The notes below the pieces were generated by a model. It was not told the DNA's origin and made no database searches. It was given only the letters and a program-made list of their open reading frames with translations. Shown one piece after another: positions 6,401 through 58,222 of a stretch of DNA of 64,000 nucleotides (its first letter is position 1; every line of letters begins with the position of its first letter). Origin of the DNA: Sipunculus nudus (taxonomy: Eukaryota; Annelida; Sipuncula; Golfingiida; Sipunculidae); assembly GCA_026874595.1 (NCBI GenBank), contig CM049317.1, forward strand, positions 22,206,882-22,270,881, written 5' to 3'. A program made the position numbers and the translations under genes.

Positions 6401-9400
6401 AATGAATATTACATCTATTAGCTTTAATAAACTAGCAAGCCTTGAAGACATCCCAGAAGAGTGACAGAATAATAGGGTTCCTGCCAGGAAAAAAAAATAT
6501 CTGTCTGATCAAAAGGTTGGGGGAGGGTGTGGAAGGTGGGTCCCCCCCTTTCACAGTGGAAAATTTGGACAGGAAAATGGTGTATTTTTATGCTATTTGA
6601 GCAACCATTCAGTGAGATACAAGGTGTAGTTTCTTTGTATAATCTCTTGGCATATTAATATCATTGAAGAAAATCAATCGGAATCAAACACATGCAAGTG
6701 CTCCTAATACAGAGAACATGAAAGGAGTGGTACACACTACACAACCATTGTGTCTGGGATATTGCTCCTTTCATTAATACTTAGTATCATGTTATACAAC
6801 ACAGCACTGTCCAGGTCTGGGAATTGGGGTGCTGGCCTCGGCTCAAGTAATAAATTTGGGCCCTGTAGTACCCACAGGTAGAGTCTAATTATGGTCTAAT
6901 GGGTAAATTATCTGATAACTCTTCTTCGAAGCTGGACAGGCCAAACATTTTCTTCCTTTTGTGCACTATCCACTGGGTAATAATACCTTTAATTGCTTGG
7001 TAAAAATGTCTGTTTACGAGTAAAAAAGACAGGGTCGCGGGAACCCTGCATAGTCATCATTTGGCTCTGCTTTGAGAATTATGTATGAGCTTAAGCCAGA
7101 TTCAGGACATAAAGGTAGAGATATAAAATATTATTATCAGCTTACCTTCAGGCAATATTTATAAATTTCACTTGTGTCAAATCTGGTGCTATAAAACCTT
7201 CATATATTTTGTTTACCTTCAATCCTGAGGAGATATAAGATGTGCATCAGTATTCACTTGTCCCTACATTCATGCAGACTTATTGTACCACCATAAGTTT
7301 TTTGGCAAATTATGTTAACCAGTTTGTCAAACCCCACAATATCTGGCCATCCCATGCACAGAATTATAGTAAAATAAGTAAAACAGCTGCCTGTGTTAAA
7401 ATCTTTGTTAATATTGACTTAGTGGTCTAATGTCTGTTTTCCCGTTGTAGGCCTGCTTGATCCCAAATGGAAGGATCAGCGTGATAGATCCATCGCTGAC
7501 CGACGTGAACAGGAAGAAGTGTACGCTGCTGGTTCCTCCATTGACAGCAGCTTGAAACAACTCGCTGAGAGACGTACGGATATCTTCGGTGCAGGAGATG
7601 AAGAAACACAGATCGGTAAAAAGGTCAGTAACACAACTTGTGTAATAAGTGGCATTTATAGATCAGCTAGAAACTGCTAATAAAACTGCTGTAGGACATA
7701 GTTAGTTTTTGTGGCACTGCATTTTGGAATCCTTGGTAATGTTGGAATATAATCCAGGCTGAGAGATACTCTCTTGCCAGTGCTAAAATAGAACTCCTTA
7801 TTCATCCTGATCTTGGTGCATAAAAAAGTTAGAATCATGAAAATTAAAATTTAACACATTGAATATTATGATGTATTCATTCGTTAAAGAGAGAGTCTAT
7901 CATATTTGGTCATAGTCATAGAATTTCCTAAAATATATTGATACAACAATCTATTTAAAGAATTCAAGACGGGACATTAATTTTTGCATGGGCTACATAT
8001 AACATAGAGACAGGTCAATAATTTAATAATAGTTTTGTGTTATGATTTATAAAAAATAAAAGGTACCCTTAAATTTATTCGCTTTAGAAAATCTAATGTA
8101 AACCATTGTGATTCTCTTTAAAATGCCTGATATGCTTTAACCCTCCCTGGTGTGTCCGTATCCTGAGGAGTTTTTGTCCTGATGTTAAGGTCGTATTTTG
8201 TAGATCGGTGAAGAGGAGAAAAAGGAATACAAAGTGGTCTGGGACGGACACACCGCGTCCATGGAAAAGGTGTCACAGAAAGCAAGGGAGAACATCTCAA
8301 TCGAAGAGCAGATTGCCGTTATTCACAAGGCTAAGGGATTATTGTAAGTTTTTTTTTAAATTATTTTTTGTGGAGGTAACTGCCTCAGTTTTTTATTGCT
8401 AACTTAACTACGTTTATGTACATCTGCAGAATTCCATTCCAGTTTCGGACTAAGTGACAGGGCAGTATCACACGCTTCCTCTCATTTTATATCCTGGCAT
8501 CAACCAGGCCCGGTTACTACTGCACCTGTGGGCCCTGGGTGCATTATCATGATATCTTCCTTGTCAGGCTCTTTCCCATGATGAGTTTGACAACATTTTT
8601 ATCATGGATTACTTGATGGATTCTTTTACCTCTCCTCCATAGTCCTATGATGGCTGAGATGTTTTTGGCAAACATAATCTACTTTTCTTGAACATATTAT
8701 TTATTTAAACAAACACCTCAAATAATTAAATTTGTACACAATTTGTTGTAAATACATCTTTTGTAGTATATTTGCCTTTCTGTGGGAATACAAGGAAAAT
8801 ATAGAATGTAAGGAAAATATACAGTCATGGAAATATAGAATTAAAACAGAATACAGTAATATTTTTAATCCTTGAAGTAGAAGAGATTCACAGAAAAATT
8901 ATATCAAATGTTCAGCATTAATTTGTAGGTAAGAATTAAGTAGGAAACAATAGATAAAGACTTCACACATAACATTTGACACTGTGGGATTTTATTGTAG
9001 TAGGAATTAGTAGGAAACAACTTCACACATAAAATTTTACACTGTGGGATTTTATTATATGAGAATATAGTTTTATGTGACACAAATTATTGAATATAGA
9101 AATGTAATTTCAGCAAATGTTGTTATTACATAGCTTTTTATATTCCAGGCCTGATGAAGAAAAAGAAAAGATTGGTCCTTCAGTTCCAAAGTTGCCACCG
9201 CAATTACGTGAGCCACCGCCCCAACCCCCACAACCCCCAGTATCTAAACCACCCCCTCCACCACCTAAGCCCGCTGCCCCTCCAGCAACAGTTGCTCCAG
9301 TTCCTGCTAAGCCACCCCCACCACACCCCCCAAAATCTGTGCCTTTACCGCCGCCCCCACTGATGCAGCAAAGGATGGTGGGAAGACCGCCGCAGATGGT

Positions 9401-12400
9401 CGTGATGGGTCACCAGCCTCCACTGGCGCCACCTGTACGAGGACCTCCTGTTATTGGTATGCACTTCTTATAACGCCACCAGATGATGTAACAGCTCAGA
9501 TAAAAATAGTTGTATGGTAATGGTCAACTGGCAGAGAATGTAGTAAATTGCTATATATATGTCTGTTGCTAAAACTGTGGAAGGTATTTTTCAGACATGT
9601 TATGGAAAATCTTTGCCAGTGATTGTTTGCAAGTTGATAAGAGCATATCTGAGTGCTTTTCTAGTGCAGTTTATTGAATTGTAGATGCTGATCATACACA
9701 CCTTAATCTGGGTAACTATATTTGACATAAGGAGTATAGCATTGTCAGGGAACTCAGACTTGTTTTAGCAATTAATTTACATATTCATAGACTAAACTGT
9801 ATTTCTGAGTACAGTGGATCCTCCATTAATACAGGATTTCGCTGATACCAATACTCTCATGTATGGAGGTAGTAAATGACTGCCTGCTTGGAAAAGTGCA
9901 GACAAACAACTAATGCCCCCTAGTATCCAGCTTGACCAGCCCATACATTCAACACAGCTCAGTGTGGGCTCAGTGTGTTTTTAATTGCCGATCATCCTGT
10001 TACTTATTATTTATCATATTTATAATGCTGTTTTAAAACATATTGCAGAAACTTGAAAAGACATAAGAAATTGCTGCATTCAGCACAGTTTGCATTAGAA
10101 TTTGATATTGAATCGCCTGCCTTGTAGGGAAACGTACACAGAGACTTTCAGTCATTGATAAATGTCAAATTTGGCAAGATTCCTTGAATTTGTTGTACAT
10201 TTTGGTACTAATAAAAAAACCTTGTATTTATTCAATGATCATATTAATTAATTAGAGTCAATAGTGTAGCCTATATAAGTTAACAAAGTGGGGATTGTCA
10301 GTTTTATCTGTGCTTATTATTGTCCAGCTGCATAAAACTTGCCTGCACAAACGGGCTTCCTGCTGAGCCAGCCAGTTGTTTTTCTCCTCCGTCTACACGA
10401 AAAGCTGCATTAGTGATATCCCGTATTGGACACATATGCCTGTAGTGGGTACTTTTTGACAGACCTGTGTTTTCTCATTGTAAGTGGTTTTCTTGACCTC
10501 GATATAGGTGGCACCTCTGTAATGTGGGCAGTTTGCCACAGTCCCAAGGGTGTCCATATTATAGAGTTTTCAATGTACATGAAATACATGTTAACATTTG
10601 GTATTTGTCTGCTCTGCTTGCTTATTTGATACACACAGTATACACACAGTAATTTAAACTTTAAGAGTAAGTTTATTCTTTAAAAAGAATAAGAAATTTA
10701 AGTTGAGGTGGTCATTATCACATAAATATTTGTATTATGGTTTCCAGTAGGTTAAGTCAAAATGAAGTTTATCTGTATTGACTCGTTATGTTTTGTCTCC
10801 AGCTCTGCAGGGTCAGCCTCCGATGCACATGGGCATGGCCCCGGGTCCCCCTGTCGGTGCCCCACAAGGTATGATGCCCCCTCGGGGTCCTCTGATGCCC
10901 CGCCCCAGTCACCCCCCACCCCCGGATGATGAGCCACCAGCAAAGAAAGCCAAGTCAGAAGACAGCCTGATCCCTGAGGATGACTTCCTGAGGATGAACC
11001 AGGTGGAAAATTGTGAAATTATCTGGATTATTGTGAATGTGATATATTTTACCTAGGTCCATAATCCACTGTTGACATTTGTAAATAAACGGTGCTGTGT
11101 CAGTCTGGTTGAATAAAACTAAAGAGAATGTTTGAAACTTTTCTTTTGTCTAAGTTTAAGCATTCTACTTTGGGATATCGTGAAATTTTCTGGGTTATTT
11201 TGAATGTGTTATATTTTACCTGAGTCCATCATCCACTGCAAACATTTGTAAGTACACTGTGTTGTATCAATCTGGTGGAATAAAACTTTAGAGAATGTTG
11301 AAAGCTTTTCTTTTGTCTAATTTTAAACATTGTACTTTTATTTGACTTGCCATGATGTATATTTTTTGGTAATGTAGAGGAAGGATAATAATGAATTCAT
11401 TACCTCATGTAATATATATACATCTGTATCAATTTATGTTAACAGCCTTAAATCAAGAGGCTTAATAAAAATTTTCATTTTCACAAGGAAAGCTTCATGT
11501 TCATGTCCATAAGCTGACCAAGTTTATCCCCATTATAGATAATTATAAGTATAGATGGAACAGCTGGTATATGTACAGTTGAAAACTGAGAATTGGTGTT
11601 CTTTTGTAATCATGGTAGCTTGTCCAGGTCTTGTCCAAAATGTATTCATTATTTCTTTTCCAAAAAGTTCACTGAAAATATTCATAACTGTTTATATAGC
11701 ACTGGTACTGGTCTCATGGGCAAGACGGCTGGCTCCCATTTGATGACCGTTATTGTTAACTGCAGCGATGATGTAAATAAATCTCTTGTACACTGACAGA
11801 CAAACTGATTGAAGGATAAACTTGTAAACAGGGATGATTACACAACCTGACAATATAAAGTTTGTTTGTTGATGGAGTTAACAGAAACATTTCTTCAGTA
11901 CCCTGGTTTAATGGACTCGGATATGTTAAGAATAATCTGTCTCTTTCTGTGTTTAGAGCCCAGTGACTTTCAGAGTGGCTGTACCCAACATGCCAGAGAA
12001 GGCTGAATGGAAGCTGAACGGTCAAATGGTCACTCTGACCCTGCCATTAACAGACACGGTGAGTAAACTCGATCATATGACTGAAGTAGAAATGGTCATG
12101 CTAGTTGGATCATGAGAGAGTTGGATCCTATCATCAGACCTTTGGGACAGTGGTTTAACCATAGTTAAACCATAAATTCTTAGTGTAAATAAGTGGCAGC
12201 AGTGCCACCATCTATTGGCAGTAGTTCAAATTAATTTATAGACTAATATAGCTATCTTCAGTCTATTCAGTTTGTGTTTGTATATAATTGTGTGTGTGTG
12301 TGTGTGTGTGGAGAGAGTTAAATGGCATCATTTCCAAGATTCACATCTTTTAGAATATTCTATATTCAAAGAAAATAAAAACTTAGGTTTAATTTTTTTT

Positions 12401-15400: not shown

Positions 15401-18400
15401 GTCAGGGTCACAGGATCCACTTCTTTGAAAAGGTTGTGGACACATTTCAAGCTAGACTTTTCATTCCAAACCTTCCAGCACTGATATCGCTTCTCTGCCA
15501 ACAGGGGAAAAGACCTGTTGATTTTGAGGTCAAAGGTCAAGTTCACAGCACCCACTTCTTGCGTGGAGTCATTTTCAGGCAAACTTTTCAATCTGTACCT
15601 TCCATCTGTCATATATGGCTTACCTACCAATAAGGGAAGAAGCCTATTGATATTGAGGTCAAAAAGTCAAAGGTCAAGGTCACAATATTTAATTGTTCTT
15701 AATGCTTGTGAGCATATTTCAAGTGTAACTGTTCAACCCAAACCTTCAGTCTTTCACATATGCCACATCTATGCATCACTCAGTTTGACTCAAACTTCAT
15801 ATTTATGGGTCTTTTTGCTTGAATAAATAACTTATTGATTTTGGGGTCAGCTGGTCAGCAGATTAAAGGTTGCAGGTCAAAGTTATTCACCCATTGGTTG
15901 CCAAGTAATTGCACCAGATTTAAGTGGTTAGTAGTTACCCATCATTTAGAAAGAATCCAGTTGATATATGGGCAAAAGGCCAAGGTCATAGGTCAGGGAT
16001 GTTCACAATTACTTATTTTATAGACCATCTCTATTTTTCTTGTATATATAACCATCCCACTCCAGCTGGTACATCTCCCTGTGTGGCTGTAATTGTGAGT
16101 GACACTGGTGACATATGACTCCCTTTTGTATCAGCCTATTAAGTGATAAGGCTCAGTGATAAGTACCTCATTACTTCATAACAAAAACACTGTTGTCAGA
16201 ATGCTTCAGCCAGGCATTAAGACTATGAGAGTATAGTATTAAGGTTTAGCTACTGATTTATAAGATGATGGGAACATTTTGCAGTTTATTTTATGGAATC
16301 CTAGCAATAAACTTAGTTTCCTAGATATCTGAATATTTTAATATATATCACCACATATAAAAGCAAGTGTTTGTTCTCATAATATGTGGATGTGTACCTT
16401 GATTTAGGATGGCTTTTTGTTTTATTTCAAGACTCTTAGTCATGCTTTCTGTAATTCTTTTCTTTCAGGTTTGGCAGTTTACCTACCCTGCTGACCCCAT
16501 TGAAAAGCAGAGTGATAATATAAAATATTGGACTTACACTTTTTACAATTGCATATCTATAAATCTGATATGAGGGCCTGGACATGCCTTTTGAATTATT
16601 TTGGGCATTCATTACTGGATAATTTGCTCAAGTTTGGTCTCTTATTGGAGAATGTGGGATATCAAATGTCATACTTGTCAGAAATCCATAATGTCTGCCA
16701 GTTAGCCACCTTAGAAATTCTTTCTTCAGTGCAGTTTCAGTAATTTTTCTTTAATGTTTGGTCCGATTTAGAGAATGTTTGTTGTCTGATTTCAGACTTG
16801 TCAGAAGTCCAATATGGCCACCAGGCAACCATCTTTTAATTCCTTTTGATCATATTATCTCAAGAACAGTTAAAGTGAATGCAGTTGGATGTATATTTAT
16901 GTAATTTTGTAAAGGATTGGGTCAAATATTTCTGAATAAATATTACCATCATTTATAAAAGTGCAGTACAGTTGGCTTGTATTGAATAAAAATTCATACA
17001 GAAGCACCTGTTTCTCAATAATTCTTGCATGTATTTCCTTGAATTTTGCTATATATTTTGATCTTATATTTTCCCTTTGTGGTGTTCCTTTGAGACTGAC
17101 AGGTTTCAAGCAAGCTGTTGGAATAGTTCCTGATAGCTTAACAATCATGCATTTTCCTCAGACCATCAATTCACTGTGTTTTAACCAGACATAGGTGATA
17201 TATATTTCTGTTGTCATAGAAAATTTTCAACAAATTGGCAAATTGGTTCTTCAAAATTTGACTGGAAGTTGTGAATCTCAGTCCATGATGTCACAGGTCA
17301 TGCTTGGCAGCTGAGCGTCATGAACCATGGGTCACTTGTTTAATGCTAGCTTAACTAATTAAATGTACATCTGCAGATGTCCAATCCGGTTTTGAACTAC
17401 GTGACAGGGCAGTATCACTTGCTTCCTCTCATTTGATATCCTGGTGTTAACCAGGCCCGGTGACTACTGCACCTGTGGGCCCTTGGTTGGTCATCATACC
17501 ACCAAGGATCCCTGAAAGGCGCACTCATTTGTGAGTGAAACACGGCCGATGGGCACGACCTTCCCATTAAGCCTGCAGAGGGCTCACCTCGGCTGAGGTT
17601 TGAACTCACGATCTCCCGGCTTTGAGTCCTGCGCTCTACCCCTGAGCTACAGAAGCCGGTTACTTAGGTTTAAGTTGAGCCCTTGATACACACAACTGGA
17701 ATAGTTGCAATACATTGAATACTTTTTATTTGAAAGATTCATGTTTGTGAACTTAGTTAAAATATTATGCACTCTTGTATTCTGCAATTCATAAGTTTTG
17801 TTGAATTGCAGTATTAGTGGATGTAAGTTTCTATCAGGGTTCATAATTTATAGTGCCACAATAAGCACTTTTGGGTGTGGAAAAGTAAATGCTCTAGCCA
17901 AGACAATATATTTTACTGAATTTGCAGTGTTGCATATATATTAATGTATATAACGTTGTAATGATTTTGTTTCTTCACAGGTATCTGTTATCAAGGCTAA
18001 GTTACATGAACAGCTCAGTATGCCAGCTGGTAAACAGAAGCTCCAGTATGAGGTAAGTTCAAGTTATAAGAATCCACGAGTATCATATCCTCGAATAACT
18101 ATGGGATCCTTTGAACTGGTAATATCTTCTCAGAACACCAGGAAAGTGTTACTCTGTAACTTACAAAGCAGTTTGGGAATTTATCTAGACATTCAGTATG
18201 TCATTACTCATACAGACTCATACAGAGGAGAAGGAGTGATCATATTCTCAAAAATTCTAAAATGTGATTTAAACAGTTTCAAATTTCTTTATTAAAATAG
18301 AGAGTGACATGGTAAATATGAGGGTGAAATATTGATAAAGATCAGATGCAGTTTCTGTAAGATAACATTTTTTCATCTATAAGTCACTTCCCATTAAGTC

Positions 18401-42629: not shown

Positions 42630-45600
42630 TTATTTTCCAAAGATAGCAAAGACAGTCTCTACTATAGCTGGCACCACTGGTTTCAGCACTGGGGGCGCCA
42701 AGGTAAACGCGGCAATATGAGTAGCAGACTTGGCAAGTCCATATGCGTCAACTTCTTGTTGTTCCCTATTCTCGCTGAGAGTTTCAGCTGTTTGGCGAGC
42801 TGTTTCAGCTGTTTGCGGTTGCTGTTTATTTAACTCGTTCATTTTTACGAAATGTCTATATTCGTAGTCCATGGATTTCTTGAGGGATTGTTTATGTTCT
42901 TCTTTATTCACTCTGAATTTCTCTGTTTCTTTGAAGAATGTATCGCACACGTTTTCAAAAGTGTGATTGTGCATCTCTTCAAGTTCGTCGGTGGTTTTGT
43001 ACGATTTTCCTATGTCAATATCCTACAAAATATGGAATGAAAATTCGAAGTAAATAGAGGGAATCTTGAAAACCTATATATTGCATTGCTTATCATCACA
43101 TGTTCAACACAGACGAGAAAACCATATTAAACGGAGTCATTATAACAATATTGCAATGATTATTTGTATCTACCTCCGACATGGTTTCCCTGTATCTTCG
43201 GACAGCATTATTTGTTGCCTCCGTCACACACACCGATAACCCAGTCTGTAGAGAGTAAATATTTAAAATTGATGAATATGCATGTTAAATATTTAAACTT
43301 CTGATCCTAAACCCACTTCAATTGAATCTCATTATTTATAAGTTTTCCTTTTTTTGTTGAACGTTCAGCACATCACATGATAGTTGCGACAATGGGAAAC
43401 TTATTTGAAACAAAGGAAATTTATTCTTTATTTACGTCGTATGCCCATTTCTTTTCCTTTTCATGTCTGGAACATATCTCTTGTTTCTCATCCAGTATTT
43501 TCTTTAACTCGCTCTTCACTGTGTCCGGAAGGTACAAAAAATCTGGATGTCGGATTTCAAGTTTTCCCTTTTGATCTCTTGGGTCGTAAGGAGTGTCGTA
43601 TAACTTCATGGAAAAGATAAGTAAACATGACTCATTTTGCATTTTAGATATTTGCAAAGTTCCTTTAAAAATACATCCGTTTTTCTGTAATGTTACCTCA
43701 AATAAATTTTAAGTCAACAATTTTGCTTGTCGTGCGAAACAAAAAAAGATAGATACCTCATCAAAAGTATTTTGCAGTTGTTTCAAAATATCGGATTTTA
43801 TCCCCTCTATTTTAGCTTTCTCTCTCTCCTGCAATGCAAAGTGTAGTAATTATTCATTATGAATAATGAATAGTGCAATCTATGACGGGTGGTTGAGCCT
43901 ACAGATAAATAACTTTAAATTGTAACATAAAATCATGCAAAACAGCAGTACTTACCTCTCTGGTAAGGGCAAGTGTGTTTGTGTCGTTAAAAGCTACGAA
44001 CTCTTCATCTAATTCCTTCTGTAGCTTGACCAGCCATTCCGTATGAACGTCCCCGTACTTGTACGTTGCTTCTTTGTAAGTAAAGATGGCTGATCTTGAC
44101 ACTGACTCGTGCAAACTTTGGAAGTCATTCTGATTGCGAGGCCCTTTCTTCGTTTCGGCTTCCTGCGTGAGCAAATACACACATATACATTTTTTTCACA
44201 ATAATATCATTAGGTTTGATGAATTTAATGAATTGAAATAAATTTTGAATCATATAATTAATTAATTTAAATATATAATTCTGAAACTCAAGTACTGGTA
44301 TTTATTTGCTTAGCTGTAATAAAAATTAAAATATTTTTTCGTCAATGAAACTCGGATAGGCTGAAACAAACCATTCTAGTGACGTAATGTTTCTTTTGCT
44401 GTGCTGCCACCTCATTGCACTTCTGTTCTTGTTTCATCTGGTAATGAAACAATAAGATAAATATAGTATACTCCAGGCACACACTTTGTGTGAAGATACC
44501 GATATGTTTAATCCTGCAGGAAAAAAGATCCTAGGAGAACTAAGGCAAGAATCAAGCTATCTCTTATAAAAAGTACATGAACCGATAGAAGGATATGGTA
44601 TATACCATTAAAAATGTATGGTTATTTAAACATTTGTTTCCTTCCAGATTACTCGTAATACTTTAATCGAAGTAAATAATACCAACGAGTTCAAGATTCT
44701 GACTTGTAAATGGTTTGATGGAAGGAATTGAATAGATAGTTCTACAAATGATTGAATTGGTTTATCCTACCAAAATCCTTTTGTTTTCCTCATTCACTTT
44801 TTGGTAGCGATCCCAAAGCTTATCCACTTCTTGTAGAAACCTCTTCCGATGATTCATATCTGAAATGCCTTCTTTCAAACATATTCCGTCGTATACCTCA
44901 CAAGCAGCATTTTTGCCTTGTTTGTGTTTTTCTTTCAGTTCCTTTAGATCCACGTGTTTCATGCCCGGAGCAGATATCTGTAATAGTTGGAAACCAGTTG
45001 CAGCAGTTATTTTTAAATTAGATATAAAGAACATGTATAGTACGTGTAAGGAACATGTTTCAGTAATACTGTGCACTGCTTTGTAAAGTCATATTTTCGA
45101 ACCAGCTCAATTATCACAATTTTAAATCAAGAAGGAACAGCTTGTCTTTCAATACCTTTTCCATACGGAACTTGTAGTGAGAAGATGCCTGGCTGGACGC
45201 ATTTGCAATGACTGCATTCTTCAGGTCCTGCAAAACGTTCCATATACTTTTTTATTGATGACAGCGCCTCCTTCATATTGGCCATATAACATTTTAGAAA
45301 CTTGTAAACATGTAAAAAAAAGTAATAATAAGGCACGATAATTTTGCCATCGAATGTTGTAATAATATTTCTTTTACTAACCTTTTCTATTTTTGCTGTG
45401 TGGGCGTTTTGAATCAACCGTGAATATGTTTGTTCGAGGCCCCCGTTTAACTCGTCTAACAGTTCTTTCGTATCTAACACGCGATCTTTTAAACTCTTCT
45501 TAAAAGAGGAGACAATGTCCTCCCTGTATTTAGTGTGGAAATTGTGCAAAATTTGTGGTTCTGTTTCTCCCGCATCGATGTGCTGAAAATGGAATACTAA

Positions 45601-48600
45601 TTATGAGTCAAGATTAAGGCTATGATTTGTAAACAGTAAATAAAAAGTTGCGTAGCTTCGTGTCACATCTATCTTACCTTTCGCATTTTGACTTCGTAGG
45701 CATTTCGTGAATCAACAAGTCTTTTTCGACACTCCTTTTCATCTTGTTTCTGAAAATAAATTGCACAGGTACGCCAACTATAATATTACTATAGGCATGG
45801 TCACTTTTTAATCATAAATCTTTGTCGAGAATAAAGTTAATATTACCTGTTTCTCCAGGATATTCTTCTTCAGCTCCAGCTTTTGCATGTCCTTGATACT
45901 AGTAATAGAATCATCCAGTTTCTTTTGGAATGCTTTAACGTCATGTTTGTTTCCACGGACCTTTTCAGCAAAGAATGCCTTCACTTTTGTTTCTGCTTCG
46001 TTCAGTTTCAGTAAATACCCATCAGGGTTTACTATCACCACATGTGAAGTTAGATCACCCACTTTCTGTATCATACACATGAACATAAGAATTCGACTTG
46101 TACATTTGCATTCAAACAGCCTCTGGTCATATAACAGGCCTGTTATCATGTGTAAGCCTTGTTTTTGATTTTCGTTTATATATTTAAAAAGTTTGGCGTA
46201 CGGACCTTTAAACATACAAAGACTGATTATGCGCTTAATATTATGGTATATGCAAATTTTAATTTTCCAAGTCTTGTTTATCTTATCTAGATTTTTAAAA
46301 TATATTGTTAGATATCCGGTATTTGACTCAACAATTATTCCACTATACCTGTAGCATACTGGGTATTATGCTTCATTGTATAAATTAACCACCAAACTTA
46401 TATTTATGATGATACATTTTTACATTATGATTTTGAAATGGACATTAAAACCTTTTTAATTTTTATGTTCCATCGATAAAAATATTTTTATTAGACATAG
46501 ACAAAATATAAATATGCTTTATTGACCATATGTTTCTAACTCAAAATTAAATGGGCCTTCAAAATATAAAAAATATAGATATAAAATAAAACATAAAACC
46601 AATAAATGTGTTATATATATAATAGAAAACATTTGTGGGAATTCCCACTTTACAATGAACAATTAAGCCATTAGAGTCCGAATACAGTTCTGAGACCTAA
46701 ATATATTATAAACGATTTGCGGTTTGGTACGTTTCGTTATAAATGCGTCAAAGTCAATAAACATTTGGGTGCCTACCTGAACAGAGAAGCGGAATTTTTC
46801 CATAACGTCAGATATTAGGATAGTATTGTACTCGGTGATCAAAGCCTGAAAGGTGACAATGAAATCACTATAAAAATATGAAATGCCGAAATATGTTAAT
46901 TTTATTTGGAGAAAGGAAATATAACAATACCTCCTTTGTTGATACGGGCTTTGGTAGTTTCCCAGACTGGAAGAGGGTCATATACCTCTGAAAAAAATGA
47001 AAGTGTGTTAATAAAAATATCAAAGAATCTCGAATAAATAAAATAAATTTTGGTAAATTAAAACGTTGAAAGCATTGCTACCACAGCATAAATAAAACTT
47101 TTTCTTCTATAAACGTTAGTTCATTATATCCAAACTAACCACTATATTATCGCGGAGATCGATGCCCGTGAGAGCTTTTGTCCCATATTTCTTTATGACG
47201 ACTCGTTCTGAATCGAGCAAAAATGGTGCCAGCTCATCAAGTTTCTTCACAAACTTAGGTTTAATCCCTACAATATAAATGTTTAAAAAAAGCTAAACAA
47301 ATATATAAATTCCTCAACATAAAACATGTCATATTTTTGTATTATTCCAAAATAAAGGATAATAAAAACGAAACTCAAGAATTAAAATGCTAAGCCACCT
47401 GAAATACAGCCTGTGAAAACGTCGTCTTTATCGTCTGGATCTGGGGTTTCGCAAGCTTCTGTTCCCGGTGTAGGCATGAGAAAACACTCAAAGCTTTCAA
47501 AGCAACTGTGAATATTTTCCCTGACGTTCCGCAGGGCTTGTGGTTGATTACCTTGTGCCTTATAAAATGTAGAAAATTATCAATATTACCAATAAATCAA
47601 GAATAGCAATATATTACCTGATCGTTTAAAACAAATTTCGTTGCTGTGTCTTATTGTTGGGGTGTATATACCATTAGTTTGTTCAGGAGATATGCTAGTC
47701 CACCTTCCTCTCCGAACCTATGCAATGATGGGTCAGTCCAATCTCTCACCAAATAAATCAGACGCTGATATGGAATAATCGCCCATGAGTATAGTTAATG
47801 ATGTGGACGTGATTACAAAATACATATTAAGATTTTTTGAAAGTATAAACACTTCGCTTAAGATGTCACGCAGGCAAAAAATAAGGTCAGCGTATTTTTA
47901 AATTCATAATATCATATTCAATTATTTTCAATTGATAAATCTTAGCCTTTAAAGTTTACCTGAAAGGGTTTATCAATGTCTTTGCAGGTTTCCTCCAAAA
48001 CCATTTTTGCAGCTTCTACGAAAAGCTGAAAAGATTTACAATAATAATATTTATGAAAATTACAAATTAATCAGCTGGATATATATAATAAAAAGACACG
48101 TCAGAAATAAACGGTTACCTCCAAGTGCTTCAGGTGGTGTTCTCCAATTGTTCGCATAACGTTGTATACCTGAAGAAGTGTTGTAATGAATATACATATT
48201 CTCGGTATATGTTTACAGACGAAAATTTCATTGATGTTCGTTGTTATCTGAGTCTGCTAATTGTTACGTATGTGAGTAAACCAAAAGTAATTGAAGATAT
48301 TATGCCCTGACCTGAGTAGAACTAATCATTGTACTGAGAGCAAATAGTGTGGCTGCGTCTTCTGGGGCTGTTTTGTCATCGAATAAGCCCTGGGTGTCCA
48401 TCAACAATACTGCCACCTGGAGGTATAAATTAAAAATTTCGTTTATGATTAAAAACATCTCCGAAAAGCCAACGGAGATGTATATTTGGAAAGGTAACGA
48501 TAAAACTAATGGATAGGTTTCTTTATTTAATTTTAGAATAAATCTGCCCTCAGGAGAGAGAGAGATGTTTGGAAAGAGGATAAGGTATCAATATAATATG

Positions 48601-49535
48601 ACATGTAATTATTATTGTTGTATTTTAGAATTACTAGCGCGGTGCTTGAAATAATTTAGAAGTCATTAGGTGGCATTAAGGCTTTAAATTGGATCTCTAA
48701 TGTTCTATCGGTATGTCATAATGTTGTAGTTACTGTGCTTGGTAGGACTTTGAAATATGAGGCAAAACACGCCATACCTAGGATACGTCTGTCCTAATGT
48801 ATTACCCAAAAATCGATGCGAAAGTTAAAGTAAACAAACTACCAAATACGTTTTTATCCATTGAATAAGGATTACCTTGGTCCCGTCCTCTGTTGTTATT
48901 ATATACGGTTTACTCCACAACAGTATACCAACAGTCATTCTTTGAGCACCGGGGGCCCAGTCAAACCCTGTTAGAGGCATATTTGAATCCTTCAGCCATT
49001 CACTTCTTCTTCCCCTTTCCTTAAATTTGATTGAATGGATATTCGATATATTCACATTCATATTGATTGAAATTTGATACACTTTCTATTTATTATGAAA
49101 AATGATTGCGTAATAAAAAAATGCTACTTACGCTTGCTTCCAGAAAACGTATAAGAAAGTTCAGCAAGAAGGATTTTCCGGTTCGGTACTCTCCAGCAAT
49201 TGATAAAACTGCAACTGGCATATTGTAAACTTTTTTCAGGACACTCGTTAACGCAGCTGTGTCAAGCGAGAGCGTTTTGCCATGTTCACAGTTCACTATG
49301 CGTACGGCGTGGCCATCATCTGTGGTTATATATACATAAAGCATATATGCTATATTCTTCTGTTTCCAACTAATCAGTATGTACTTCTTGTTTAATCGTT
49401 GTTTCTTATAACAAAAGTTCTTTTTTAATCCTGAGGTGCACTATTTCCATTAAATAGAGACTAGAATACGCATTGACAGGTTTCGTGTAATTACGAAGAG
49501 AAATAATTTAATGACATACCGTTAAATAATGCCAT
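42630..49535 (-). CDS. Atlastin/GBP-like large GTPase A, 941 aa, 22 coding exons
   Basis: Exons, 5' to 3': 49535-49520, 49319-49132, 49019-48876, 48416-48312, 48169-48119, 48025-47960, 47764-47672, 47558-47399, 47267-47140, 46987-46931, 46845-46777, 46065-45847, 45749-45678, 45582-45382, 45227-45156, 44977-44771, 44437-44372, 44162-43956, 43828-43757, 43603-43436, 43245-43174, 43022-42630. All introns are GT-AG; the frame is open throughout. The GB1/RHD3-type G domain has P-loop GEYRTGKS (48-55, with the arginine-finger position), DTQG (123-126) and LVRDW (195-199). DTQG and RDW are atlastin-like rather than GBP-like. Residues 337-941 are helical, encoded by six short/long phase-0 exon pairs. 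No transmembrane hairpin is evident; the tail ends ETVFAIFGK. By family it should be a GTP-dependent dimerising, membrane-acting enzyme; an immune role is possible but unproven. It is a tandem paralogue of the gene at 51542-58222. Confidence 0.9.
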
Positions 49536-49579
49536 CTTGTTCTCAGTATTTACACTTAGCAGTGATTTTGTGTTGTTGT
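49520..49579 (-). other. First coding exon of GTPase A with 44-nt 5' UTR
   Basis: An acceptor (TTATCAG) precedes 49579, and the exon carries a non-coding stretch followed by ATG at 49535 and 16 coding bases to a GT donor at 49519. The 16-base phase-1 start exon is identical in length to that of gene B, which supports the start choice. A further upstream non-coding exon is implied but was not located. Confidence 0.65.
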
Positions 49580-51116
49580 CTGATAACAGAAAAAAAGCAC
49601 TGTTCACCATATAGATGAAATGACATTTATCTGCACAATCTTTTTAAATGTGTTTATTGTACAATAAAATTAGTAGAGAAGACGTAAATATTTAAAAATT
49701 ATTGTAAATTAACTTCCTACCTTTCTCTCTGCAATATACACTGTGATGTATCTACATGGTCGTAAACGTGTTTCTGATAGTTTAAAAATGCGTCTTAAAT
49801 TTACCAGGTTCAGGCAGTTAACATGTCGGCCGTCTTGCATTCAGGACTCGGCACATATAGTTTAAAGAGTGTCACTCAATCAATCGGGCGGTCCTACTCG
49901 CATGCCAATCAACAAGAGGTAGGTCATGAATAGCCAGATCGTTAAGCAGATGTTATTCATCATATGTGACCTGTTTACATCATAAAAAGATAACAATAGA
50001 TTCATCTGCTGACATTAACAAAGGAAACACTAAACAGCACATTATGTCTATAATCTTATAATGTTATAAAGTTTTAACATTATGATATTATCACATTTTC
50101 TTGTAATATTTATAAGTTTAATGAGAGCACACTTATTCGCTCATCAATGAATGGCAAATAGTGTATTCATATCAAGGATTTTTTAATGTATATTCTACGT
50201 TAAACCGTTTACATTTTAAGGAATACTTAAGATCTCCTTTCAGCAGAATAATTTCTTCACAGATGGCTTAATATAACCAACTTTATTAAAACCTTTACTG
50301 ACCAACCTTTTCATTCTCAACTACTATGTGATAAAGTTACTAATAATGAAATCAGCAAAACTATTCTATACACAATATGAGAATATTATCTTCTGTCAAG
50401 CTGATTTGATTTGACAATTCTTTGACAAAAATGCATCATAATTAATACTCTAAGAGGAATATCCTATACATTAAGCTGCTTATCCTATACATACTCGTTA
50501 GTCCTTAATAAATAAGTATCATTATAGCAATATTTCATACCTTAACATAAAGAACAATTCGAACTGTAGGATATTAAACCTGAAAATAAGGCAAAGCTGC
50601 TTGGTGCTCATCGACATTGCACTGAAACTTATTATCTGATTTAGGTAGGAAAATAAGTATAATTGATAAGATGAAAATGAAACAGAAGACCATATATTTT
50701 AAAGATTAAAGGACTTTATCATAAGCACTTCAAATGTCGACCTTCTAAAATAAACGGAGGAGATTAACGATAAAACGTCCCAGTAAAGTGAGCAAGCTCT
50801 TTTCTATAGAGGTTGTATATCTAATCGCCTCCTGAATCTGCACCCTTTTTGCTCATTTTATATTCGGTAATAAAATTAAAACAAAAACATCACAAAGTGA
50901 ATTACTGAATGAACATTTATTTTTCAACAGGTTATATGATTTGCATAATTAAAACATGTACAGAGCGATATCCTTTTTTTTTAATGTGACCCAATATGCT
51001 GTTTTATTCGTACTTGTAGTTAGGGAACAGCGATAATAACAATTACCTATGTACAAATACGTCATAATTCAGATAAATTTATATATATGAATGTCATTGT
51101 TATAATACAGACGCTG
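49580..51116. other. Intergenic DNA between the two GTPase genes
   Basis: No ORF or repeat is recognised. It should hold the promoter and leader exon of gene A and the 3' UTR of gene B. A minus-strand AATAAA at 51003-51008 lies about 540 bases past the gene B stop and is a plausible poly(A) signal. Confidence 0.45.
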
Positions 51117-51305
51117 TTAATAATGAGTCTTCAGTAAAACAGACACAGATTTGTTTGTTAAATTGTAAAATGAAGTAAAACAGTTATAGTAGAAGAAGTA
51201 TAGGTCTGTAAAAGTGTATGTGTAAAAGCTTTTTGACAAAATATCATAAGCTAGCACTACTATAAAAATTACAGCTAGAGAAACCACGTGGTACTTTCTT
51301 CTCCT
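51117..51305 (-). other. Candidate alternative terminal exon with a membrane segment
   Basis: Downstream of the last exon of GTPase B, a minus-strand open frame follows an ACTGGCAG acceptor-like site and can be read in phase 0. It begins RRRKYHVV and continues with SLAVIFIVVLAYDIL, a strong hydrophobic segment flanked by basic residues, and stops at 51117. The polypyrimidine tract is weak and no transcript evidence is available, so this could be a chance ORF. Confidence 0.25.
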
Positions 51306-51541
51306 CTGCCAGTTATATCTTTGTATTTGGCCGGTCAATTATATATACTGGCTTTGAAATATGAAATTCTATACAAAGAGCTTCCGCACACGATATTTAA
51401 GTAAGGAAACTACAATATTAAGACATTTAGGCCAGGTTGGGGAGCAAGGTAAGGTCATTTCCTCCTGGCTCTGTTCGCCAACTATGTGTTTGACAAATGT
51501 CACATAACTAAATCTGTTTAGTTGGAAGGGATTAAGTTCTT

Positions 51542-51969
51542 TCAGAGTCCAAAGAAACTCAAAATCCCTTTTCCGATTGCAACGAAGGGCGCTGCCACGA
51601 CTTTAGCTACAGTTTCCACTGCTTTCCCAACTGTCTTTAGGCCTTTCAAAAATATGTTGTCGCTCTGAACGCGTTCATTTTCAATGGTTCTGTTGACAGT
51701 TTTCGAATCTGGTAGTTCTCTTGGGTTATTCAACTCATTTAATTCTTGATACCTTGGGTACTCGTTTTGAGCCTGCTTTTTTATTTCAACCAGAAAATTC
51801 TGTCTCTTTGTTGGATATTCTTCTGTTTTTTGTCGAAATTTGTCTAAAGCGTATTTCAATGACTGTGCATGCAGCGTATCGAGTTCCATTTTTGACCTGA
51901 ACGGCTGTCCAATTGCGCAATTCTGGAATAAAGTTAGACTATTTCACTATCAAGTTTGCACATTTTTAG

Positions 51970-52023
<54 letters not shown>

Positions 52024-55000
52024 TATATATTTATAATGAATGGATTGAAATACATTAGCACTTAGTTTATGAAAAAATTAATTTGTCATCGGGGAGCAAG
52101 AAGATGTTTACATATACCGGATTTCTACAAAAGAATTACCTTTGACATCCGATATTTGTATTCGTTCATTGCTCTTCTTGTGGCTTCTGTTATGCAGTGC
52201 TGTGCCTGTACCTAAAAGTTACACAGAGCTCTGGGAATTTGATATTTTATTTTTTTTTGGGAAAGTAAGGTTATATGCAATTAAGGGTGTGCAGTGACAT
52301 GTGAACTGAAAGTAAATATCAAGTCGTGAAAATTACAAAACTGATGAGATAACGAATGCTGCCATATAAGAACTCACCTCGAATATATTTCTTTTCTCTT
52401 CTTCGTGTTTCAAATATTTGATACGCATTTGCTCCAGGTAAGATTGCAACTCCTTTTGCATGTCATAGGGTAAAGTATGGTAGTCAGGGTTGTGATATTT
52501 CATCCATCCTAAATCTTCCTTGGTGTCCGAAAAAGGAGCAAAGAACTTCTGAAATGATACATAAAAGGAAGAATATTAACATCCTGACAGATCGCTGTTC
52601 TATCGTTCATTAACATTTTGATCCGTTGTATTAGGATAAACCTACAGAGGAAACTCGCACCTATCTTTAATGTTTTCAGCGTTGCCCTAGTAATCTGTTT
52701 CATAAGAAAGAGGGAAGTTGTTTTACCAACCTCATCGTAGATTTCCTTAAATTCTCGAATTACTTTTGCTTTGAGTGCCTCATCCCTGGCTCTCTGTTGC
52801 TCCTGGTGAACATATTTATTAAAGAAATTATACACATAAAATAAGTTTTTAATTTGTTTCAGAAATATTAAAATTAAAAATATTTGTACACTAGTGGCAA
52901 CAAGTCGATTTTGAAAGGAGAAAAATAATAAAGAGCCAATTGGAACACTGTACCTTTTTCTTCAAAGCTAGATTATTCGATATCTGTAGCTCTGAAAATT
53001 CATCTGTAATATCCTTCTCGAGATCAACCATAATTTTATCTCGACATTCAAGCAAGTCACAGGTCATTCTCGTGAAATCACTTATTGTTGATTGGAATGT
53101 TCGTAAATGTATCGCACGCAAGTCCCTTTCAATATATGGTCCATTTGACATATTCCTTCTCTGTTTCACAAACAACAAAGTCATAATTACGTGTAGGTTG
53201 TTATTGTCTATACAGAATTTGTCAAAAATTTTCTATATCCACATACTAAATAAAGATCGCGATCTTGCTTTGACTGAAATAAATAAATATTATAACGATA
53301 TGATAATTAATGCGTCACTAATGTTTAATATTTGCAATTAAAAAAATCTTAATTTATAGTTATTTTATATAGCATTAGTTATTGCTGCTTAAGATACTCA
53401 GTTTCACGTGCACAGTTTAACACTCTATTACCATGGAAGCCAAATATTCCTTTTTTGCCTTTTCTGCTATCTCTTTACATTTTCGATCTTTTTCAAGCTG
53501 AAATTAAATATGGTAACCTAAATTTGACGTGTATGCTTATGAATGGATTGATCAGCTGATCTTCACAGAAGACATGTTTTTCAGATTGATTTATTTAATA
53601 GAAAAAGAAATATGCGTACAGTTACTGTCCAGTCGAAAGGGCATAGCACTGATAATTGTAATCTCGTGTAACGAAATGTTACCATATATTTGTGAAAGTG
53701 AGGCCCTGACCCTTTCACCGAAGTTTCGAGTTATTCCAATTACTAGTTCATACAATCGAGAATATTTAAATATTTTCAAGGCCCGTAACAATAGCATTTT
53801 TACTCTTATCATTGTTGTAATTTTGTTGATCATACAATTTTGTAAATTTCTTTATTACTAATAAAAGAAAGATAATAAAAAGGTAACCTTGATCTTTCTG
53901 TTGTCTTCGTTCGTCATCATATAGTTCGAGTAAGTTGCTTCAAATTTTTGTAAAAGTTCCGCACGCACTAGTTTCTTGAAACCGAGGTCTGTGATGGATG
54001 AGCCATCGTACATTTCAAAGGCCTTGTATTTGCTTTGGCCATGATATTGCTCCAAAACATTAGGTTCAGCATATTTTCCGCCTGGTGAACAAATCTAAAT
54101 AAAATGAAAATATAGGATATCCTTTCATATATTCATATATGATATATAAGAATTTGTTCAGTATCCATAAAATTAAGAACAGATGTTAATTAAAAAAACA
54201 CGTGTCATTTGAACGTTATTTCATTTCAACATGTAATATTAATTTCCTACAAAAAATATATACTTATATTAAATTATCATATTTTTGTGGCGTTAGATAA
54301 TACAAAATTATATCATATAGTTAGAAGGAATATGCAAAAGATTAGATAATAAAATAAATTACCTTAGCCATATTTCTTTTATATTCGGTTAAAACTTGTT
54401 GAGCCATATTTAACCATTTAGCCTTGTTCAGTTCCTAATAATGATATTTACCATTATAATTGTTCCCCTGAGATCATCAGACAGTGTTGTGTTTGCGTTT
54501 TCATTAATATATAATGAAATATAATGTCGGCTTCTACATAAATATTAAATCGAAATATCTATTCTTAAGATACACTGAAATGTAGCTAAATCAATACGTT
54601 GTGCTGTTTCATTGGAATACATAAAGAATGACAATTGAATAAAAAATACCTTTTTCAGTATTTTTTCTGTGTTCCTGCTTTTGAATGTATTGTATATTTG
54701 TTGTATATTGGATATCAAGTCATCATACAATACATTTTGGTCCAAAAGCAAATGTTGTATTTCGCAAAGGAACCGTTTCATTACATCCCAATTGCATCTT
54801 TCATGGTGGTCTTTTAACTCTTGAGCAGTCACAGTTTCTTTTGATAACCTCTTAACAAGTGAATAATGAAAAATAAAACATAGAAAAAAGTAAGAGTATA
54901 TTGAGACAAAAGATACTCGCTCATGTCAATGGCAAACATTGGTGAAATGTTACTAGCATACATATTTTTATTCACCTGTCGCATATTAAAATATCCGAGA

Positions 55001-58000
55001 ATGTCCTACCTGTTTCAGCAACAAGAAAGAATTTGTATTACGATATGGTTTATGAATAAATTAAATCATTTTTAGATAATATATCACGAGGAATTTTGTA
55101 TTCCACAAGATTATCAGAACACTCACACGTTCCATGTTGGCATTGTACCTTTCACACGCTTTTGAAATAGATTCTCTCCCTGTTCCTTCATCTTCTTGCT
55201 GCAAAGAGACATAAATGATGATCGAATGAATAAATATAAACAGTTTGTGATATATTATATAATAATAATATTTTCCCTGGTGATACCTTTTTCGTAAGGA
55301 TTGCCTTCTGGAGTTCCAGTCGAGTAAAATCGATGATCTCGGAAACGGATGCATCTAGTTTCTTTGCGAAACGTTCGACCTCTTCTCCGTTCCCTCGCGC
55401 TTTAGTTGCGAATTGATCAAGGATGTCACTGCGTGCTTTCATCAGGGTTTCAATATACTCATTTCCGTTACGCAACACCTCGAGTGGAAAAGGTTTACCT
55501 TGGTACTGAAGTGACAAATATGAGGCATTAAAAAGTTGAACAGATCCCTCACAGGCCAGGGTGTCCGACAGGCCTTTACTTAAAATGATTTAATCCATTA
55601 CTACATTATATCAACATAGGTCTTTTTGTGTATCTATAATTGACATGCAGTATAACGTCTTTTGGAAACAAACGTTATATATTTATTAAGAGGTGTCAGC
55701 TCTGTTTGATTAAAACCTAGATTTTTCATGTATTTCTTACCTTCAATACCATTTTGAACTGCTCTTTTTCAGACATGACAAGTGCGGTATTATACTCACT
55801 GACCAAAGCCTGAAGAGTACGGAAAACAGTGCCACAAATAATTTCAACGAACACAAAAATAGCCCATATGAAACAAACACATTTTTTTATGAAAACACAT
55901 GCAGTGATTGGTTTAAAATTAAGGATTCAATATTTACCTCTCTGGTTGAACCAGGGGGTGGCAGCTTTCCACTTTGAAAAAGAGTCATGTATCTCTGCAA
56001 TTAAACGTTTGCATGAAATATCCAAAAATGTACTTTATCATAATAATAGAATTTAAAAAATAGTTTTTTTTTATAAATAAACAAATACATTGGTCCTCTT
56101 TTCAATTAATTATAATCAATTTTGAAACTTTTAAAACTAAAAGATATATTTATTTCTAGCTCTAAGCTGTCAAATGGAAAGAGTATCCATGATACCAATA
56201 TACTGTCACCGAGTTCAGCCCCCGTCATAGGCTTTGATCCCAGTTTCTTCACCGGTATCCGTGATGGGTCAAGTAGGAAGGGTGCCAAGTCACGAATTCT
56301 TCTGACAAATCTTTTTGGCAAATCTATAAAAGACCATTAATTAATAGTTTTCATTTAAGGACACTAACACCCAATACTCAAAATACACGAAACAAAGAAA
56401 CTACCCTGCAGCTGTCCATCAAACACCTTTGACTCGCCCTCGTCAGGATCAAGACTTTCTGTGGCCTTGCTTCCAGGGTGTGGCATGAGGAAGCACTGGA
56501 AACTGTTAAAACATGTATGGATATTCTTTCTAACTTCCTGTAAGTCCTTTGGCTGGTCCGAGTGAACCTTTGAAACAGACATAAGTTGTACTAGTGATAT
56601 GTTAAATATATTGATAAGCGTATATAAATTATTAATGGCAATGATAAAGGTGATCGTTTTAAAAATGATATAATACCTGCAGCTTCTCAAGCAAATAGCC
56701 TTCTCCTCCTTCTCTTCCAAAATTGTATCGCTTAGGGTCGCTCCAGTCTCGAACTAGATAAACCAGGTGCTGCAGAAACATATTGTAGCAAATAATTTTG
56801 ACGACGATCTACATGTATAAGCCATTATACAACGGACAAAGATAAATTCTACCTGGAATGGTGCTTCTGTCATCCTTCCCGTGTTTTCTTCAAGCACCAT
56901 CTTAGCAGTCTCTACAAAAAGCTAAAATATTCATTTTTATTAATGATAAACATGATCACTACATATTTCATACAAACAGTTTATGAAGTAAAATTTTATA
57001 TTTAAATATGCACATTGGAAATATGTTTTACCTCCAAATGTTTCAAGTGGTGTTCTCCTATATTTCGCATGACGTTGTATATCTGGAAATAAAACACACA
57101 TATGGCGGTGGTAGGAATAAAGTATGTATATTTACTGCAGGTGAAACATCGACGAATAACATTAAACCACATGACCTTTTATTCCCTTGTTGAAACAGGT
57201 TTTTATCAAATGACACCCGAAATGTAGGTTTGAAAGTTCTTGCCTGTGTTGTGCTGATCAGTGTACTTAGTGCGAAAATAGTTGCAGCATCTTCTGGTGC
57301 CGTTTCTTGGTCAAACAAGCCCTGCGTATCCATAAGTAGCACGGCCACCTTCAGAGTGAGTTTAATTTATATTTTTAAGAATATGCCCTACACAATACGA
57401 TATCCAACAGTACTTAAAATGTCCATACCTTATTTTTTCGCATATAATTAGGATAATTTATGTTTAAGAATTAACTGTTGGTAATGCAGATGATTTTACC
57501 TTTGATCCGTCGTTCTGGGTTATTGTAAACGGTCTGCTCCACAGTAATATACCAACGGTAGTTCGTTCTGCGCCTGGAGCCCACTTAAATCCCCGCAAGG
57601 GTCCTTTATCCTTAAGCCAGTCACTGGGGTCTCCCTCCTCCTATAGTAAAATGAGGTTCCAGATTGAGACATCGTTGAACATATCCCATATTAATTTTAA
57701 ACTATTCGTAATATCTAAAATAACACCCACTGTTTTTCTGTTTAATTTAATAATCCCTCATAATTAAAAGAGGGGTTAGGCAAATGAGAGAAGAAACGTA
57801 CGCATGCCCGCAAATATTGTATGAGGAAGTTCAGCAGGAAAGATTTTCCAGTTCGATATTCACCGGCTATGGCTAAGACCGAAACCGGCATGTCCTTAAC
57901 TTTGCTCAAGACCCCCATCAAAGCGTTTGTGTCAAGCCTGAGCTTTGTTTTGCCGGTCTCATTAACCTTTACAATCGGCACAGCATGGTCATTTTCTTCA

Positions 58001-58222
58001 GTTGTAATTTAGATGAAAATAGACAGAAATATAAATATTATAATATATATATACATTGAAATGATGATGTATACATATATATATATATATTTAATTATTC
58101 ACAGTAAATTTAACATAAGATATATATATATATATATATATCAGTCACCGATAAACGTAAAACACTGGTCCTAGTGGAACTAGAGTAATAACGCCAATAA
58201 GCTCACCATCTTCTGAAGCCAT
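51542..58222 (-). CDS. Atlastin/GBP-like large GTPase B, 941 aa, 22 coding exons
   Basis: Exons: 58222-58207, 57995-57802, 57640-57500, 57348-57244, 57082-57032, 56921-56853, 56769-56677, 56567-56405, 56323-56196, 55994-55938, 55809-55741, 55505-55287, 55198-55127, 54850-54650, 54434-54363, 54094-53888, 53497-53432, 53160-52954, 52802-52731, 52548-52378, 52211-52140, 51922-51542. All introns are GT-AG except the one after exon 4, which has a GC donor. G-domain motifs are GEYRTGKS (50-57), switch I-like RTTVG (96-100), DTQG (124-127) and LVRDW (197-201). The part up to about residue 362 follows the atlastin G domain and first linker helices. Residues 340-941 form repeated helical exon pairs; those at 527-619 and 792-891 resemble the atlastin middle domain most. 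The tail, from about residue 905, is amphipathic or hydrophobic and ends [10 protein letters not shown]. No membrane hairpin. Intron positions and phases match gene A throughout. Confidence 0.9.
51971..52018. repeat. (AT)n microsatellite in the last intron of GTPase B
   Basis: About 48 bases of almost pure AT alternation, between exons 21 and 22. Confidence 0.95.
58069..58141. repeat. TA microsatellites in the first coding intron of GTPase B
   Basis: Two short TA runs (about 58069-58090 and 58120-58141) are separated by unique sequence. Confidence 0.9.

Follow-up and report, generated by a model that had tools for sequence, protein, structure and literature searches.

What would a GTPase look like if the helical bundle behind an atlastin G domain were multiplied and the transmembrane hairpin that follows it were lost? 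The question is raised by two paralogous genes, A and B, on the reverse strand of a 64,000-nucleotide stretch of the Sipunculus nudus genome (GenBank assembly GCA_026874595.1, contig CM049317.1, positions 22,206,882 to 22,270,881), hereafter the window. As judged from sequence, the parts of the answer that are demonstrated are an atlastin-type G domain with an arginine at the R77 position, a layout of paired short and long exons, homology of units 2, 3, 4 and 6 of the resulting array to the atlastin bundle, and the absence of a two-helix hairpin.

Gene A was modelled from a start at 49535 to a last exon and stop ending at 42630, and gene B from a start at 58222 to a last exon and stop ending at 51542. 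Both models were built from stop-to-stop frames, conservation between A and B, and splice-site scores, the splicing thus being predicted and not read from transcripts. They reproduce the two 941-residue paralogues of a preliminary description of this DNA, with the same starts, stops and motifs ([12 protein letters not shown] and LVRDW). The one departure from GT-AG introns is in gene B, where a GC donor at 57242-57243 (-) follows exon 57348-57244; the matching site of gene A has GT. The two proteins are about 40% identical, in a comparison made with one exon still absent from the model of A, and their exons past residue 337 or so are in phase 0 on both sides. Downstream of the G domain each gene holds six exon pairs, a short exon of 22-24 residues being followed by a long exon of 56-73 residues, and the final long exon runs into the tail. 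The features are as follows.

42630..49535 (-): gene A; 22 exons, 941 amino acids, spliced model with start and stop, GT-AG introns, exon order as in gene B
46931..49319 (-): A, exons of the atlastin-type G domain (residues ~6-336); Pfam GBP 2e-59
45847..46845 (-): A unit 1; short exon 46845-46777, long exon 46065-45847; at the atlastin bundle position, weak profile support
45382..45749 (-): A unit 2; profile homology to units 3, 4, 6 and atlastin
44771..45227 (-): A unit 3; profile homology to units 2, 4, 6 and atlastin
43956..44437 (-): A unit 4; profile homology to units 2, 3, 6 and atlastin
43436..43828 (-): A unit 5; phase-0 exon pair, long exon without clear homology to the others
42825..43245 (-): A unit 6; short exon 43245-43174 and start of the last exon; profile homology to units 2, 3, 4 and atlastin
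42633..42824 (-): A, C-terminal tail; one hydrophobic end, no transmembrane hairpin, maximum hydropathy 1.71
51542..58222 (-): gene B; 22 exons, 941 amino acids, spliced model with start and stop, GT-AG introns except one GC-AG
55938..57995 (-): B, exons of the atlastin-type G domain (residues ~6-339); Pfam GBP 4.7e-63, phmmer atlastin-1 8.8e-80 and GBP2 5.2e-12
55287..55809 (-): B unit 1; short exon 55809-55741, long exon 55505-55287; at the atlastin bundle position by phmmer alignment, weak profile support
54650..55198 (-): B unit 2; profile homology
53888..54434 (-): B unit 3; profile homology, long exon modelled at a mean confidence of 90.4
52954..53497 (-): B unit 4; profile homology
52378..52802 (-): B unit 5; 24-residue phase-0 short exon, aromatic at position 18, long exon without clear profile homology
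51725..52211 (-): B unit 6; short exon 52211-52140 and start of the last exon; profile homology, model superposed on atlastin-1 374-445
51545..51724 (-): B, C-terminal tail; amphipathic (moment 0.63), then hydrophobic, maximum hydropathy 1.87

The preliminary description had proposed six helical units, each encoded by a short exon with a Y-x-x-x-M-like helix and a long exon, and six such pairs were rebuilt in both genes; the stretches it had singled out as units, B 527-619 and B 792 onward, are units 3 and 6 of the B model. Tyr18 and Met22 occur together in eight of the 12 short exons and an aromatic residue stands at position 18 in 11, and neither count was reached in any of 20,000 shuffles. 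His18 of the long exon is invariant in 16 chosen rows, and some other paralogue exons lack it, for example a unit-4-like exon of locus g17b, which has Asn.

The G domain is of the atlastin type in both proteins, as had been claimed. Pfam returns GBP (PF02263) alone for B, and for A it returns GBP together with two sub-cut-off matches to domains of unknown function (DUFs; E 0.046 and 0.45), both within unit 1. With B alone as the phmmer query, atlastins rank first in the PDB (8.8e-80), followed by the LOC432253 protein and then by GBP2 (5.2e-12). The LOC432253 protein, PDB entry 9jju, is thus placed between atlastins and GBPs (9.1e-40). In the same search, the arginine of the YRTGKS motif in A and B falls on ATL1 R77 and is kept, the region directly after the G domain of B aligns to ATL1 helix 1, and a weak second stretch sets B 803-880 on ATL1 361-440 (8.3 bits, E 5.2). 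An NCBIfam search with B gave no match. Over partial sequences, G-domain identity to human ATL1 is 44% for A and 42% for B.

The array carries a repeat signal. A hidden Markov model (HMM) of the eight window long exons of units 2, 3, 4 and 6 was run against 5,368 six-frame open reading frames from 11 related loci and the window gene region, where it found 27 stretches at E<1e-3, namely its eight seeds and 19 others. The same model found none among 1,204 reading frames from the rest of the window, none among 5,368 reversed sequences and none among 5,368 shuffled ones. An iterated model, trained partly on its own finds, reached 42 stretches with the same zeros in the controls. Likewise, in profile-profile comparison (hhalign, with 12 column-shuffled controls per pair), all ten pairs among units 2, 3, 4, 6 and atlastin scored 26.8-48.2, against highest null scores of 11.5-18.8, so that the self-comparison of exon pairs 2, 3, 4 and 6 exceeds every null. 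The unit 1 long exon rose narrowly above its nulls in three of six pairs (unit 3, unit 4 and atlastin) and not with units 2, 5 and 6.

Models of single unit classes, each built from four rows and tested against 25 targets and 1,000 shuffled decoys, give a finer picture. The unit 3 model placed all four unit 6 rows, both unit 4 rows from contig C13 and atlastin above its best decoy, and the unit 6 model did so for three of four unit 3 rows, all four unit 4 rows and atlastin. The unit 4 model recovered B unit 6 and, narrowly, atlastin (12.2 vs 11.7) and nothing further, and that of unit 2 recovered four rows from units 4, 5 and 6. Among these 25 targets, the unit 1 and unit 5 models raised no other unit above the best shuffled decoy (13.5 bits for unit 1), and homology of the unit 5 long exon, sought by HMM and hhalign, gave nothing clear. 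Six units is thus exact as an exon layout and, by sequence, demonstrated for four (2, 3, 4 and 6); unit 1 is weakly indicated as a bundle, and unit 5 is indicated by its short exon. The domain duplication proposed in the preliminary description is accordingly supported for units 2, 3, 4 and 6 and weakly supported for unit 1, and does not extend to the long exon of unit 5.

The repeated unit points to atlastin itself. The profile of the eight window long exons, which contains no atlastin, has as its best match among 177,635 PDB sequences residues 378-441 of atlastin-1 (entry 7ol3, 2.3e-5); there follow atlastin-1 again (2.3e-4), the 3x1d atlastin (0.0011), atlastin-3 (0.012) and only then GBP1 (0.051). 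AlphaFold2 models of the long exons, made from window-only alignments without templates and covering helices 2 and 3 of the unit alone, agree with this assignment. For unit 3, helices were predicted at 11-30 and 37-68 with a mean predicted local distance difference test score (pLDDT) of 90.4, and for unit 6 at 11-32 and 40-64, with block means of 88-95 over residues 11-60 and of at most 61 from residue 71. With VIA-align, atlastin chains fill the first 10 of 38 rows for unit 3 (Z 7.7-8.5, next row 6.7) and the first 11 of 50 for unit 6 (Z 7.0-8.3, next row 6.2), the superposition sites being atlastin-1 374-445 and atlastin-3 370-438. The superposition proposed in the preliminary description, run on the long exons of units 3 and 6, thus lays both models on atlastin-1 374-445. 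In Foldseek, 14 atlastin chains lead the 40 rows for unit 3 (probability 0.87-0.99, E 0.26-1.6); for unit 6 Foldseek gave no significant match, with one atlastin chain at rank 10 of 28 (E 6.2, probability 0.38). The structural comparison is modest evidence, the scores being modest for helical folds; its weight comes from which chains head the lists and from the register in which they align. On the profiles, homology links these long exons (units 2, 3, 4 and 6) with one another and with the second and third helices of the atlastin three-helix bundle.

A canonical atlastin is encoded in the same genome (C3:35994923-35995704, -). Its helix 1 is encoded by a phase-0 exon of 24 residues that carries Tyr18 and Met22; the subsequent long exon starts with ICGG in phase 0 and extends into the transmembrane hairpin; GBP-type matches upstream on the same strand, as far as 36009221, probably belong to this gene. 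The unit exons of A and B agree with it in short-exon size, phase and boundary, and the long exon of B unit 3 starts with ICSPGG. Because the canonical bundle is encoded by the same exon pair, the array looks like the product of tandem duplication of that short and long exon pair, which would be its simplest origin.

The hairpin itself is absent from A and B. The maximum 19-residue hydropathy is 1.71 in A and 1.87 in B, each with one C-terminal segment, against 2.27 in the genome's own atlastin, which has the hairpin. Some vertebrate GBPs end in a CaaX box. No CaaX box was found at the ends of A (FAIFGK) and B (LSFFGL), and CaaX-like ends were read in two of eight paralogue tails: KKRRRCVIL (L007:742-1005, -) and PIPCSVM (L006:8431-8718, +).

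Genes A and B belong to a larger family. The genome holds 47 GBP-type exon matches, from which 11 loci (22 pieces) were sampled. Array long exons were detected in nine of them (9, 6, 6, 5, 4, 4, 2, 2 and 1 matches with the iterated model at E<=0.01) and in neither of the other two, g11, of which only the gene start was sampled, and the divergent gene g17a. The nine matches, the most of any sampled locus, lie behind one detected G domain (L019-L021, C3:31431500-31457500). Both loci on C13 have all six long-exon classes in order. In locus g17b (L007-L009, C17:33435000-33462000), where one G domain was detected, long exons of classes 2, 3 and 4 each seem to be present in two copies behind it; the array may have been duplicated as a block, or the extra copies may belong to a second gene that lacks a head. 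The best-scoring splice sites of the paralogues are in phase 0 for 35 of 39 acceptors and 29 of 31 donors. A motif-guided scan of six paralogue loci found a short-exon candidate before 26 of 40 long exons; because the filter itself used the motif, this count is no independent test. Between A or B and the nine array-bearing loci, G-domain identity is 48-66% over partial sequences. A G-domain tree, built from HMM-matched parts only and leaving out the genome's own atlastin (three of nine exon models matched in L025), had mixed support and set human ATL1 inside the set, beside g17a (0.75); no conclusion is drawn from it.

The two C13 loci, L010-L011 and L013-L014, are neighbouring genes with G-domain parts 90% identical and the unit order of A and B; this pair is a recent duplication. 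Just outside the window, and facing B, lies a third relative (L001:2011-7092, G000 C12, +) with an atlastin-type G domain. No more than two long exons of the array were detected over 18 kb, and the gene may be a shortened member of the family. Elsewhere in the window, a proline-rich frame and a second frame lie at 9108-9473 and 17954-18295 (+), which we take to resemble the splicing factor SF3A1; a Pfam search of six window frames gave no match.

The architecture can be set against known systems. Pfam contains models both for Sey1/RHD3 and for the GBP C-terminal helical domain. The Pfam results for A and B include no Sey1/RHD3 match (GBP alone in B; GBP and the two DUFs in A), nor was the GBP C-terminal helical domain matched at E up to 1, HMMER filters dropping most matches above 0.1. 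Atlastins (ATL1-3 and those of invertebrates) share the G domain and, in this genome, a three-helix bundle on the same exon pair, but they have one bundle and a hairpin where A and B have six exon-pair units and none. In atlastin, GTP is reported to drive dimerisation of the G domains with rearrangement of the adjacent bundles (PMC12312388). Sey1p, RHD3 and Plasmodium SEY1 are related GTPases with helical stalks far longer than atlastin's, although they keep transmembrane segments (PMC4980331, PMC3866526), in contrast to the one C-terminal hydrophobic segment of A and B. Sey1p and Plasmodium SEY1 have, or are predicted to have, a long helical stalk, and in Sey1p its length reportedly matters for fusion (PMC4980331). 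GBPs form clustered multigene families (PMC9005921), a likeness to which the CaaX-like ends of two paralogue readings may be added; they differ in that the G domain of A and B is atlastin-like and the helical region lacks a Pfam match above cut-off. A precedent for antiviral action by a hairpin-less atlastin is BmAtlastin-n of the silkworm, a 770-residue protein that is atlastin-type, cytoplasmic, without transmembrane segments and with a long middle region, described as a coiled coil (PMC4926086); A and B are set beside it by description and not by sequence. Long stalks and a hairpin-less atlastin are therefore already known, and what appears to be new here is a stalk of repeated bundles. The earlier statement that no family with this repeated layout had been described agrees with the titles and abstract starts listed from the open-licence literature, where no stalk of atlastin bundles repeated by exon-pair duplication was described, and it needs qualifying for the lengthened helical stalks of Sey1p, RHD3 and SEY1 (PMC4980331, PMC3866526).

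Taken together, we put at roughly 60% the reading that A and B are members of an expanded, hairpin-less, atlastin-derived GTPase subfamily that would act as tethers with a long stalk and a peripheral anchor, perhaps serving defence in the way of GBPs. In outline, tandem duplication of the bundle exon pair would have built up a stalk of some six units resembling bundles (in one paralogue, nine or more array exons follow a single G domain), and a short peripheral or hydrophobic tail would have replaced the hairpin. GTP would drive head-to-head dimerisation of the G domains, as in atlastin, and the stacked bundles would serve as an extended stalk or spacer whose reach was set by the number of units. 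Membrane binding would fall to the tail, which is amphipathic or hydrophobic in A and B and reads as CaaX-like in two paralogues, and the protein might tether or coat membranes, plausibly around intracellular microbes in the manner of GBPs. A role in defence is suggested because of the multigene expansion, the loss of the hairpin, the CaaX-like ends and the precedent of antiviral BmAtlastin-n (PMC4926086). It would fit a question left open in a GBP review, of whether atlastins have assumed GBP defence roles in invertebrates that lack GBPs (PMC9005921).

Several observations weigh against this interpretation. The function proposed for A and B is deduced from sequence, on a predicted spliced structure. 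The margin of the unit 1 long exon over its nulls is small (18.2 with atlastin, against 16.7 for the highest of 12), and the unit 5 long exon exceeded its nulls in one of six pairs, with atlastin alone (13.1 vs 12.1). On the structural side, VIA Z-scores of 7-8.5 fall in the range that the tool flags for helical folds, the Foldseek E-values are not significant, and AlphaFold2 may have learnt atlastin. As for the tails, their hydropathy in A and B would allow for a single C-terminal membrane anchor, and six of the eight paralogue tails have no CaaX-like end. The CVIL paralogue, moreover, has a fair donor site (score 5.3) upstream of its end, which may be spliced out, and the stretch between the two resembles B. 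Finally, in the Manila clam, three genes annotated as GBP1 went down after poly(I:C) (PMC7430831), which would count against a role in defence if they were related to the A/B subfamily.

The main rival, possible but in our view doubtful, is a long-stalked tether or fusogen of the cell's own organelles, like Sey1p or RHD3 and without a role in defence. It would account for the atlastin-type G domain and has its models in the long stalks of Sey1p and Plasmodium SEY1, with stalk length relevant to fusion in Sey1p (PMC4980331). Nevertheless, A and B have no transmembrane hairpin, a canonical atlastin is also present in the genome, and 47 GBP-type exon matches with many paralogues are, in our judgement, unusual for a housekeeping fusogen. 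It is improbable that the common ancestor of the atlastin/Sey1 group already had a stalk of several bundles, retained here instead of being built by duplication of the atlastin exon pair: the stalks of Sey1p and RHD3 do exceed that of atlastin in length (PMC3866526, PMC4980331), but the units resemble the atlastin bundle, share their exon pair with the same genome's atlastin, and vary in number of array exons among paralogues.

Two further explanations deserve very little credence. The repeats might be generic, regular exon sizes lending a repeated look to a coiled coil or to helices that are unrelated, given that unit 5 and, largely, unit 1 lack clear homology to other units and that chance structural matches are common for helical proteins. 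The profile scores, however, lie far over the nulls, with a best match that is specifically the atlastin bundle, three control sets returned zero matches, and exon size is fixed, with Tyr18 and Met22; for units 2, 3, 4 and 6, a generic coiled coil is rejected on the profile and structure tests. Nor is it at all probable that A and B are true GBPs with an extended C-terminal helical domain. Pfam does label the G domain GBP, and two paralogue tails carry CaaX-like boxes, but atlastin stands far above GBP for the B G domain (8.8e-80 vs 5.2e-12 for GBP2), the helical region has no Pfam match above cut-off, and the window-only profile favours atlastin (2.3e-5) over GBP1 (0.051). This candidate is rejected on the G-domain and profile results.

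Returning to the subfamily of long-stalked, hairpin-less atlastins, a bolder version is tempting, although the odds are somewhat against it: atlastin may have become a GBP-like defence family in this lineage. Tandem duplication of one exon pair would have made the single bundle into a stalk of tunable length, of six units up to nine or beyond, tails that are lipidated or amphipathic would have taken the place of the lost hairpin, and the genes would have multiplied in clusters, with stalk length serving as an evolving ruler for coating or tethering membranes around microbes. A hairpin-less multigene atlastin subfamily, with CaaX-like ends in two members as read, would make the question of whether atlastins stand in for GBPs in defence a testable one. 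In addition, the family would offer a natural series of atlastin stalks with varying numbers of bundles, which may be useful in relating stalk length to tethering and GTP-driven motion.

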